Positions 17,109-18,789 of a DNA stretch of 64,000 bases are shown in pieces; positions within the stretch are counted from its first letter, which is position 1; every line of letters starts with the position of its first letter. The stretch is from Aliiroseovarius salicola. GTDB lineage: Bacteria > Pseudomonadota > Alphaproteobacteria > Rhodobacterales > Rhodobacteraceae. The stretch covers positions 372,001-436,000 of the forward strand of contig NZ_JAQIIO010000003.1 of the NCBI RefSeq assembly GCF_027891095.1, given 5' to 3'. The position numbers and the translations under genes were made by a program. The notes under the pieces are model-generated. The model did no database searches. It was not told where the DNA came from and was given only the letters and a program-made list of their open reading frames with translations.

Positions 17109-17816
17109 ATGCCCGTTCAACCCACATTTCGAACCCATGCTATTTTCGCTGGTATTTTCTTCATTATCGCAACCGCGTTTCTGTTTGTTGGCGAAGCCTT
17201 TTACAAACCCGGTCTGACGCCGCCGGACGTGATGGCAAAGGCGGTTGCGGCCAAAGCACAAATCAGATTGGGGATCCTGATCGAGTTTTCCTGCGTGTTG
17301 GCGATCCCCTTGATTGCCATCACGCTTTACCCGGTTCTTCGGCTGGTCAGCCCGATGCTGGCCGTTGGCTATGTCGGATTTCGTGTTTTTGAGGCGGCCC
17401 TGTTTGCCAACATGGAAATCGACAGGATGTTTGTGCTGGCTCTGTCTGAGACACTGGCTGCGCACCCGTCGGTGTCGCCGGAAACATTGGAGGTTCTTGC
17501 GCAGAGCCTGATCGGAGGCGCAGCCTGGTCGGGGACCAGCGGCCCGATTTACAATCTGGTTTTTGTCATTGGGATGTTGATGCTCAACTGGATGTTATGG
17601 GACTCACGGCTGGTGCCGCGCTGGATTGCCGGATGGGGGCTGATATCGGCGATGGTCTTGGGGTCAATCGCGGTCACCGTGTTTTTCACATCGATCCCCG
17701 ACACCCTTGCAATCGCGCTTATCGCACCCTTGGCCATTCAGGAAATGGTCCTTGCGCTGTGGTTCATCTTCAAAGGATTTGACCAGACGGCCCTTGCGCG
17801 TGCTTTGAACGCTTAA
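17109..17816 (+). CDS. DUF4386-type integral membrane protein
   Basis: A 235-residue protein with about six hydrophobic segments; the pattern AGIFFIIATAFLFVG, GYVGFRVFEA and the late LVPRWIAGWGLI fits the DUF4386 family, whose function is unknown. The ribosome site AAAGGAG lies about 7 nt before the ATG. It stands 90 bp downstream of uvrD and is convergent with the sRNA array on the minus strand. No catalytic residues can be recognised. Confidence 0.75.
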   Translation: MPVQPTFRTHAIFAGIFFIIATAFLFVGEAFYKPGLTPPDVMAKAVAAKAQIRLGILIEFSCVLAIPLIAITLYPVLRLVSPMLAVGYVGFRVFEAALFANMEIDRMFVLALSETLAAHPSVSPETLEVLAQSLIGGAAWSGTSGPIYNLVFVIGMLMLNWMLWDSRLVPRWIAGWGLISAMVLGSIAVTVFFTSIPDTLAIALIAPLAIQEMVLALWFIFKGFDQTALARALNA

Positions 17817-17896
17817 CGGATCAGCATCTCAATAAGCGATGTCTGTGGGTTGACCGCGCGTCCCTGTCCGGGACCATCCAATTCGAAGGGTAAGAC

Positions 17897-17976
17897 AAAA
17901 AAACGGCGTTGCCCGGGAGGAGGTGGGCAACGCCGTTCTTTGTCTGATGCGGTCCTCAGGGAGGAGGAGAAGACCG
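17897..17976 (-). ncRNA. CcsR-like sRNA unit 4, ending in the array terminator
   Basis: Two hairpins on the minus strand, each with CCUCCUCCC in the loop. The first (17950-17976) has an 8-bp stem with one G-U pair. The second (17902-17937) has a perfect 13-bp stem AACGGCGTTGCCC / GGGCAACGCCGTT and is followed by seven U residues, so it also acts as an intrinsic terminator for the whole DUF1127-sRNA transcript. Confidence 0.82.
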
Positions 17977-17990
17977 GCTCAGGGCGCGTT

Positions 17991-18052
17991 CAGGTCAGGG
18001 AGGAGGAGACCTGTCAGCGATGTGGATGACCCCGGGAGGAGGTGGGGCATCC
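17991..18052 (-). ncRNA. CcsR-like sRNA unit 3
   Basis: Two hairpins on the minus strand with CCUCCUCCC loops: 18024-18052 (stem GGATG-CCCC with one bulged base) and 17991-18013 (6-bp stem CAGGTC / GACCTG). The 10-nt spacer between them matches the short within-pair spacing of the other units. Confidence 0.8.
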
Positions 18053-18063
18053 GAAACTTTGGG

Positions 18064-18137
18064 GCGGCAGCCTCCTAGGGAGGAGGAATGGAGGCTGCCG
18101 CATCCCGAGGCCTGCATAAAGGGAGGAGGAGCAGGCC
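18064..18137 (-). ncRNA. CcsR-like sRNA unit 2
   Basis: Two hairpins on the minus strand with CCUCCUCCC loops: 18109-18137 (7-bp stem GGCCTGC / GCAGGCC, extended by CCG/CGG beyond a bulge) and 18064-18101 (perfect 12-bp stem GCGGCAGCCTCC / GGAGGCTGCCGC). Confidence 0.82.
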
Positions 18138-18155
18138 CGGAAAAAGTGATCGACT

Positions 18156-18221
18156 GGCGGGGGCAGGGAGGAGGAAGCCCCCGCCGTCAATCTCGGCACC
18201 GCAGGGAGGAGGAGCGATGCC
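18156..18221 (-). ncRNA. CcsR-like sRNA unit 1
   Basis: Nearest to the DUF1127 stop codon. Two hairpins on the minus strand with CCUCCUCCC loops: 18195-18221 (8-bp stem with one G-U pair) and 18156-18185 (perfect 9-bp stem GGCGGGGGC / GCCCCCGCC). In Rhodobacter sphaeroides four homologous RNAs, CcsR1-4, each with two such stem-loops, are co-transcribed with and processed from the RNA of a DUF1127 gene; the arrangement here is the same. Confidence 0.82.
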
Positions 18222-18240
18222 AGGGAAAAACGTGCGAAAC

Positions 18241-18456
18241 TTATGCGCCGTAGGCGGCTTTGCTGGCGATCGACTGGATCTCACCGCGGGCAATGCCCAG
18301 ATCGTCCAGCTCGCGGAGCGACAGTTTGCTCAGCTCGCGAACTGTTTCGCGGTAGATGGCGCGTTTTGCCATGGCTTCTTTGAAGTCAGCCAGCAGGGCG
18401 ATCAGACGGTCAGCGATTCCAGCGTGGGCGTTCAGGATTTCGGTGGCGTGTGCCAT
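18241..18456 (-). CDS. ccaF1: DUF1127 small protein, CcaF1-like
   Basis: A 71-residue protein ending in the DUF1127 (YjiS-like) motif RELSKLSLRELDDLGIARGEI. In R. sphaeroides the 71-residue CcaF1 (RSP_6037) is an RNA-binding protein that helps mature the CcsR sRNAs encoded directly downstream; here the same order holds, with the first hairpin 19 nt after the stop codon. The ribosome site is weak (GTGAG about 8 nt upstream). The homologous locus is controlled by alternative heat-shock type sigma factors, but I could not place such a promoter confidently in the upstream 300 bp. Confidence 0.87.
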   Translation of the reverse strand: MAHATEILNAHAGIADRLIALLADFKEAMAKRAIYRETVRELSKLSLRELDDLGIARGEIQSIASKAAYGA

Positions 18457-18789
18457 GGGTCTTACTCACTTTTCGTTTCGGTGCGGGGCTTGTGTCAGCC
18501 AGTCCGCGGAATTTCGTGTGGCGCCGTGTTGGCGTCGTTGAGCGTTATTTGGCGCCAATGCTGCATTTGCACAATCCCCGAAGCTGTCATTGCCGCTATG
18601 CAGAAAATGCATATGTGATGTTGATCTATTCTCCGGCTTGCGGTTTTTTCGTCCGCGGTGCAGGGGGCGGGTTCTGCTTTGGGCTTGCAACTGGCCTGAA
18701 AGCACACAAGTAATGTGGCACCCCGTTAATGTGGCACCCTGTGGCCATGCCGGTTTGGGGAAGTTCAATTGCAAGAAAGCGAAACGAAA
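18457..18789. other. Intergenic region with two short direct repeats
   Basis: About 330 bp between the DUF1127 gene and mrp, which are divergent, so it should hold both promoters. Visible structure: TGGCGCC at 18519-18525 and again at 18550-18556, 31 bp apart on the DUF1127 side, and TAATGTGGCACCC at 18711-18723 and 18727-18739, 16 bp apart on the mrp side. No gene and no clear -35/-10 pair. Confidence 0.5.

Follow-up and report, generated by a model that had tools for sequence, protein, structure and literature searches.

A probable CcaF1-CcsR/cuckoo-RNA operon with eight hairpins in Aliiroseovarius salicola, and a candidate LysR-type operator in its promoter

What kind of element is formed by a row of identical 9-mers lying behind a small DUF1127 gene, on which strand would it act, and how might it be controlled? 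In the 64-kb stretch of DNA that was analysed (hereafter the window), the sequence GGGAGGAGG was found in eight exact copies on the plus strand, beginning at positions 17915, 17959, 17998, 18034, 18078, 18121, 18166 and 18204 (span 17915-18212), and a search of both strands of the window revealed no copy beyond these eight. None of 100 shuffled sequences reached eight motifs (mean 0.69, maximum 4), and the whole genome holds 18 copies of the 9-mer, that is, the eight of the array and ten scattered singles. The steps from motif to motif are 44, 39, 36, 44, 43, 45 and 38 nt; coding on the plus strand was rejected, as these steps are not all multiples of three. The initial annotation had placed the array behind a DUF1127 gene, and the Pfam match confirmed this: the hairpins lie directly 3' of that gene on the same minus strand, the whole locus covering 17893-18456 (Table 1). 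Between uvrD and the array, a gene for a DUF4386 protein is encoded on the plus strand (window 17109-17816), for which no relatives were found within the short flanks of the other 109 loci.

Table 1. Features of the locus and of related sites in the same genome. Plain numbers are window positions (L, locus; G, genome; C, contig).
Feature	Position	Strand	Basis
DUF1127 gene, 71 codons, CcaF1-like small protein	18241..18456	-	Pfam PF06568, E 5.1e-11
Hairpin 1, 9 pairs, loop motif 18204-18212	18194..18222	-	fold; arm comparison in 18 genomes
Hairpin 2, 16 pairs, loop motif 18166-18174	18148..18192	-	fold; CcsR1 match 1-2
Hairpin 3, 12 pairs, loop motif 18121-18129	18103..18142	-	fold
Hairpin 4, 12 pairs, loop motif 18078-18086	18064..18101	-	fold; CcsR1 match 3-4
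Hairpin 5, 9 pairs, loop motif 18034-18042	18024..18052	-	fold
Hairpin 6, 6 pairs, loop motif 17998-18006	17991..18013	-	fold
Hairpin 7, 10 pairs, loop motif 17959-17967	17946..17980	-	fold
Hairpin 8, 21 pairs, loop motif 17915-17923, stem into GUUUUUUU	17893..17945	-	fold, sequence; CcsR1 match 7-8
Rfam ar14 (RF02344) match over hairpins 6-8	17899..18025	-	68.3 bits, gathering score 58.8
Putative LysR-type operator TATGCATTTTCTGCATA (YATGC-N7-GCATR), continuing into GCGGCAATG	18597..18613	-	palindrome in 21/21 genus loci
Conserved promoter core GATTGTGCAAATGCAGCA, then -10-like CGCCAAAT	18559..18576	-	upstream alignment, genus
Extended operator, copy 1	window DUF1127 promoter		
Extended operator, copy 2	45 bp behind LysR gene, before sRNA		
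Extended operator, copy 3	G000:C27:24892-24908 (L319)	-	between elongation factor P gene and small frame
SorX/SorY-like sRNA	L132:1368-1517 (G000:C23:285613 region)		between LysR and purL-like genes, same operator as window

The locus is very probably a CcaF1-CcsR or cuckoo-RNA (CIN1) operon read from the minus strand. Hairpins 6-8 were matched by the Rfam family ar14 above its gathering score, and a second ar14 match, over hairpins 1-2, reached 40.0 bits, under the curated score. The CcsR1 family (RF02791), whose Rfam entry reads 'Conserved CCUCCUCCC motif stress-induced RNA 1', matched hairpins 7-8 (35.6 bits, E 7.6e-7), hairpins 1-2 (34.0 bits, E 2.4e-6) and hairpins 3-4 (31.9 bits, E 9.9e-6) in the 921 bases searched, all three under the gathering score of 65.3 bits, and gave no match to hairpins 5-6 at E <= 0.1. 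Other families found below threshold were ar7 (E 1.9e-4) and 6C RNA (E 0.06 and 0.07). The 71-aa DUF1127 product, the hairpin pairs, the terminator-like end and the matches to ar14 and, below threshold, to CcsR1 bear out the earlier proposal of a CcsR1-4 type sRNA locus, and the RNA array is thus an additional member of an already described locus type.

When the minus strand was folded from 17885 to 18240, all eight CCUCCUCCC copies were unpaired, each in the loop of its own hairpin as initially proposed. The fold energy was -173 kcal/mol, shuffled sequences averaged -111 (z -11.6), and none of the 100 shuffles folded as stably. The stems had been put at 6-13 bp, of which the lower end holds and the upper does not (Table 1). 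That the stems are mutually unrelated yet self-complementary was borne out in 18 genus genomes, where the mean score was 9.20 between the two arms of a hairpin and 3.69 between arms from different hairpins, the latter being about the level of shuffled arms (2.72-3.75). Furthermore, in all eight hairpins arms of the same genome paired better on average than arms mixed across these genomes (same-genome/cross-genome scores, hairpins 1 to 8: 8.83/6.53, 10.81/8.29, 8.53/6.09, 10.71/6.69, 7.36/4.54, 6.71/5.44, 7.26/6.30 and 13.22/10.70). An alignment of 20 of the 21 genus loci (L020 left out), imperfect in places, showed 36 of 69 consensus pairs kept via two-sided changes in one or more sequences (a single one of these 36 pairs is long-range and lies outside the hairpins); hairpin 1 was not recovered as a helix by RNAalifold in these 20 loci. 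By the arm tests and the two-sided changes, the stems are therefore conserved as pairs in related genomes, a point on which the initial annotation had made its reading depend. The loops, in turn, were exact in 142 of 144 cases in the 18 genomes, an invariance that is partly built in, since loops had been preselected at <=1 mismatch; arm tests and loop count exclude the three genus loci with seven hairpins. The claim of fixed loops on changing stems thus stands. Since the loops are near-invariant and the arms co-vary, selection appears to hold the loop and the existence of a stem, not the stem sequence.

The conserved hairpin number and pairing could also mean that the hairpins are mainly processing or stability elements, or that the DUF1127 protein binds them within the 3' UTR of its own message for autoregulation, with mRNA pairing being secondary. 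Published work describes CcaF1 as binding RNA and affecting CcsR maturation, in that raised CcaF1 disturbs this maturation and shortens the half-life of CcsR1 (PMC10253847, PMC8307010). We consider this unlikely to be the principal role, because the loop is anti-Shine-Dalgarno and stays constant while the stems turn over, and because small RNAs with two, three and four such loops, the two-loop RNA being that of R. sphaeroides, are described as stress-related (PMC3927594). The autoregulatory reading is, however, compatible with that of a CcsR-type operon and does not exclude it.

As to the strand, the long stem of hairpin 8 runs on the minus strand into GUUUUUUU, an intrinsic terminator-like end that was read by eye and that agrees with the claim that the last hairpin is a terminator. 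The terminator scan reported hairpin 8 on the plus strand only, with a weaker CTTT tail, and we take the missing minus-strand call to be a limit of the consensus scan. A large number of hairpin loops with GGA is the hallmark of CsrB, and if the plus strand were the functional one, its eight GGA-bearing loops, closed by a hairpin 8 that also scores as a terminator there, could make up a CsrA/RsmA sponge like CsrB or RsmY. This is very improbable: the longer U run is on the minus strand, all eight Rfam matches at E <= 0.1 fall on it, both the promoter core and the DUF1127 gene are oriented along it, and a search for CsrA (PF02599, E <= 0.001) gave no match in this genome, which is 99.98% complete (among 14 named genomes searched as a control, three were positive, namely E. 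coli, B. subtilis and T. maritima). The plus-strand sponge was rejected on the lack of a CsrA match and on the terminator direction. The tandem layout, and one family genome with 25 tandem pairs of mostly near-identical units, might suggest a DNA repeat that arose by mobility or slippage and has no role as RNA. This is scarcely credible and was rejected, because different hairpins have unrelated stems (3.69, as opposed to 9.20 within a hairpin), corresponding arms co-vary across genomes, and the array keeps its place next to DUF1127 and mrp.

The CcsR-type array had further been described as four pairs of hairpins. No such grouping is visible from the motif spacing within the window (36 to 45 nt), and of the proposed pairs CcsR1 matched 1-2, 3-4 and 7-8 in register but left 5-6 unmatched. 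We keep the four-pair reading because of the CcsR1 matches, the presence of UUUC before odd hairpins only, and the spacing in other genera. In 18 genus loci UUUC precedes 36 of 72 odd and 0 of 72 even hairpins, and in other genera, where the duplicates L049 and L050 were dropped and L078 was kept, 21 of 103 odd and 3 of 103 even ones (loci with fewer than four hairpins excluded); the Rfam CcsR1 model starts with GUUUC, and this placement is as expected if units start there. In 26 loci from other genera the step within a pair is 39.2 nt (sd 5.7) as opposed to 62.9 nt (sd 15.0) between pairs. The genus array is compact, with a weaker contrast of 39.7 within versus 43.8 between pairs in 18 loci, all of these averages excluding loci with an odd number of hairpins or fewer than six. 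Moreover, when the terminal hairpin is omitted, the first hairpin of a pair is weaker than the second, in other genera (7.30 versus 10.18) as in the genus (7.94 versus 9.54). Two or more hairpins occur in 68 of 108 loci, a set from which the duplicates L049 and L050 were removed and in which L078, a duplicate hairpin-less locus, was retained, and their number is even in 55 of the 68.

A relative of the DUF1127 gene was found in 36 of 61 genomes searched, including all 21 of the genus, and further loci were taken from the best 80 of 227 relatives. Eight hairpins are present in 18 of the 21 genus genomes and seven in the other three (L020-L022), with loops at <=1 mismatch. Across the family, sampled as one genome per genus and each at least 95% complete, tandem motifs occurred in 114 of 150 genomes and a reversed control pattern in 25, of which 24 bear arrays. 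In a draw of 289 genomes from the class, 16 matched, of which 4 were among the 5 family members and 12 among the 284 others; the reversed control also hit 12 genomes, so the pattern is at background outside the family in that draw. The gene mrp is a neighbour in at least 59 and uvrD in at least 40 of 110 loci with short flanks, a number that counts three genomes twice (L049, L050 and L078 are identical in contig to L022, L034 and L048, respectively).

Array size and presence vary among these loci. One family genome (L208, G446:C1:334949-336119) holds the 25 tandem motif pairs mentioned above, which looks like a recent expansion, and two loci from Stappia and kin (L086 and L111) have, behind a single DUF1127 gene, two three-hairpin arrays about 600 nt apart. 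In L075, L097 and L048 (the same as L078) the DUF1127 gene lies beside uvrD without a CCTCCTCCC hairpin at <=1 mismatch; by eye, the folds of L048, L075, L078 and L097 showed just one or two terminator-like hairpins behind the gene and nothing resembling an array of the CCUCCUCCC type. The array may have been lost, or never gained, in these lineages. For five further DUF1127 genes of this genome (L170, L172-L175), the 450 bases downstream lack CCTCCTCCC, and the sequence before the frames read lacks, at <=1 mismatch, a palindrome of the kind described below.

Comparison of the 21 upstream regions of the genus revealed a conserved block made up of a palindrome, TATGC-N7-GCATR, and, 39 bp from the start of this palindrome (38 in one genome), TTGTGCA-NN-YGCAGC. 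In many genomes of the genus the core is followed by sequence resembling CCCCATNTT, and in the window by CGCCAAAT; the latter is poor as an RpoH site, judged by what we take to be the RpoH consensus, and a sigma-70 promoter scan found no promoter. The window palindrome is the sole exact TATGCA-N5-TGCATA in the genome and, in our reading, shows the T-N11-A geometry that would fit LysR-type sites, with its centre some 65 bp before a predicted transcription start near 18540. A LysR-type operator, absent from the initial annotation, is clearer here than an RpoH promoter. Where a locus has two or more motifs, the core (<=1 mismatch) was found in 61 of 71 cases and the palindrome (<=2 mismatches) in 63 of 71, as compared to 1 of 39 and 34 of 39 loci with fewer motifs (three genomes are doubled in these counts; shuffle rates 0.05% for the core and 10% for the palindrome). 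The palindrome therefore tracks DUF1127 genes generally, and the core tracks hairpin loci.

The core, as CATTGTGCA-NN-YGCAGCA, also precedes a P-II/ammonium-transporter gene pair in 6 of 13 genus genomes at <=1 mismatch (G005, G006, G008, G009, G011 and G012; loci L161, L164, L166, L167, L168 and L169, with both genes Pfam-checked in L168). There it abuts GCAC-N6-GTGC, which we take to be NtrC-like, and no palindrome was found in the 60 bases before it. As the core occurs without the palindrome elsewhere, it was not counted by itself in favour of LysR control.

YATGC-N7-GCATR occurs at 16 sites in the genome, compared to 2 for a control pattern. A tail, AGC-N-GC-NN-TG, which was defined after inspection of the first two sites, follows the palindrome at 3 of the 15 sites examined (one of the 16 had no locus), and these three extended operators are listed in Table 1; the third, in L319, gave no Rfam match at E 0.1. 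The window site and the one before the LysR-linked sRNA have 13 of 14 letters in common from GCATA on. The exact published LsrB/VtlR box, GCAT-N3-TG-N3-T (PMC7486931, PMC8844928), is absent from the window promoter, which reads GCAT-AGC-GG-CAA-T and is one base off. The exact box is present in none of the 21 genus cuckoo promoters, 20 of which have the GG form, and in 13 of the 21 genus LysR-linked sRNA promoters. Over all genera, and with promoters of more than 1 mismatch excluded (25 of 30 LysR loci kept; L049 and L050 dropped, L078 retained), it was found in 8 of 57 hairpin-locus, 13 of 25 LysR-sRNA and 9 of 33 other DUF1127 promoters, the loosened form GCAT-N4-G-N3-T in 55 of 57, 22 of 25 and 26 of 33, respectively. 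Of the 12 remaining palindrome sites in the genome, two (L314 and L318) also have the loosened box, which therefore proves little by itself.

The candidate operator may be bound by an LsrB-like LysR protein encoded elsewhere in the genome (G000:C23:285678-286610). This protein has the LysR domains PF00126 and PF03466, and its closest PDB entry is 9hh1 (E 9e-78; next best 5e-35), which is described as the LsrB protein of A. tumefaciens (PMC11975290). At E 1e-60 the gene is present in 30 of 37 genomes searched and in 21 of 21 genus genomes, where the palindrome behind it is exact in 19 and differs by one base in the other two. Among loci from other genera or families, the frame was recognised in seven (not in L305 and L308), and in these the palindrome is exact in three, one base off in one, and two or three bases off in three. 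The LysR gene (L132) is flanked on one side by the sRNA and a purL-like frame with AIRS and FGAR-AT linker domains and on the other by a frame in divergent orientation, truncated where the locus ends, without a Pfam match; trxB is not among these direct neighbours. The sRNA matched SorX (RF02784) at 50.6 bits, over the cut-off of 46.6, and SorY (RF02651) at 51.9 bits, under the cut-off of 111. All 12 LysR-sRNA loci searched at E <= 1e-4, nine of them from the 21 of the genus, have a SorX or SorY match, that to SorX being above the curated score in 8 of the 12 and that to SorY below it in all 11 loci that list one.

Our hypothesis is that the two sRNA loci may be under the control of an LsrB-type regulator via the shared operator, which is well conserved and is the new part of this work. 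In Rhizobiales, VtlR/LsrB is described as activating AbcR sRNAs together with DUF1127 or orthologous small genes (PMC7486931, PMC12595884, PMC8844928). We see even chances for a wider proposal, in which an LsrB/VtlR-type redox LysR protein of Rhodobacterales directly activates, through ATGC-N7-GCATAGC-N-GC-NN-TG, not only the DUF1127-cuckoo/CcsR operon but also the SorX/SorY-like sRNA next to the regulator's gene; LsrB, an anti-Shine-Dalgarno sRNA and DUF1127 would then form a redox circuit ancestral in Alphaproteobacteria, with the long array as an addition made in Rhodobacterales. No title or abstract among the matches listed linked a LysR regulator to ccaF1-CcsR, the main papers on the locus lying outside that scope and possibly describing the operator.

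Anatomy, conservation, co-varying stems, synteny and the conserved promoter palindrome are observed; transcription, processing, stress induction and mRNA binding would follow by analogy with R. sphaeroides. A stress or redox input would act at the promoter, through an RpoH-type factor in R. sphaeroides and here possibly through an LsrB-like activator too. One minus-strand transcript from near 18540 would carry the DUF1127 protein, the eight hairpins and the terminator in hairpin 8, and RNase E, with a part for the DUF1127 protein, would cut between the pairs to give four two-hairpin sRNAs. For R. sphaeroides, processing of the locus, a role of RNase E and an RpoHI/HII promoter are described (PMC10253847, PMC7866481), the second of these reports having RNase E and then PNPase act on CcsR1-4. 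Under stress, the CCUCCUCCC loops, eight of them exposed per transcript, could pair with purine-rich ribosome binding sites, that is, the Shine-Dalgarno regions of mRNAs, and so lower translation or stability.

Exact loop complements at start sites are few, with one convincing case in this genome. The number of sites with GGGAGGAGG 3-9 nt before an ATG ranges from 0 to 7 among the genus genomes; 17 of the 21 have one, and at least three of these sites lie inside the cuckoo locus itself. The clearly recurring site is before a DUF4212 gene (PF13937), where GGGAGGAGG is exact in 10 of 18 orthologues and GGGAGGTGG precedes the start in the other 8; the gene was not found in 3 of the 21 genus genomes. 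This makes the DUF4212 gene a candidate target, though a weak one.

Compared with known systems, the locus has in common with CcaF1-CcsR1-4 of R. sphaeroides a DUF1127 gene for 71 aa, the length also given for CcaF1 (PMC10253847), four two-hairpin units, CCUCCUCCC loops and a final terminator, a comparison made via the Rfam models and descriptions and not via the R. sphaeroides sequence. Unlike there, the CcsR1 model is sub-threshold on three units and misses the third (hairpins 5-6), and the RpoHI/HII promoter is weakly recognisable. The cuckoo RNAs, or CIN1, and ar14 (SmelA075 and SmelA099 of Sinorhizobium) have identical loops on free stems, as here, but these rhizobial families are described with three or four hairpins (PMC3927594), as opposed to eight. 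With the array, a known stress-RNA locus is confirmed for a further genus and its rule can be given in numbers: loops are frozen, stems are free yet always paired. The promoter result may matter more. SorX of R. sphaeroides is reported to come from the 3' UTR of ompR-1 (PMC8625941), whereas the SorX/SorY-like sRNA lies here between the LysR and purL-like genes. LsrB, for its part, is called unique to Rhizobiales, with trxB said to be its constant neighbour there (PMC11975290). Since trxB is not directly beside the LysR gene here, and since the assignment is by PDB similarity and not by a tree, we call the protein 'LsrB-like' only; the window box is, in addition, one base off. What the Rhizobiales LsrB/VtlR-AbcR1 regulon has in common with the present case is an LsrB-like LysR gene and, next to it, an sRNA of the anti-Shine-Dalgarno type, together with a DUF1127 gene with a similar operator. 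If LsrB-like control is true, CcsR, SorX/SorY and the rhizobial AbcR-DUF1127 circuit would belong to one regulon under a redox sensor.
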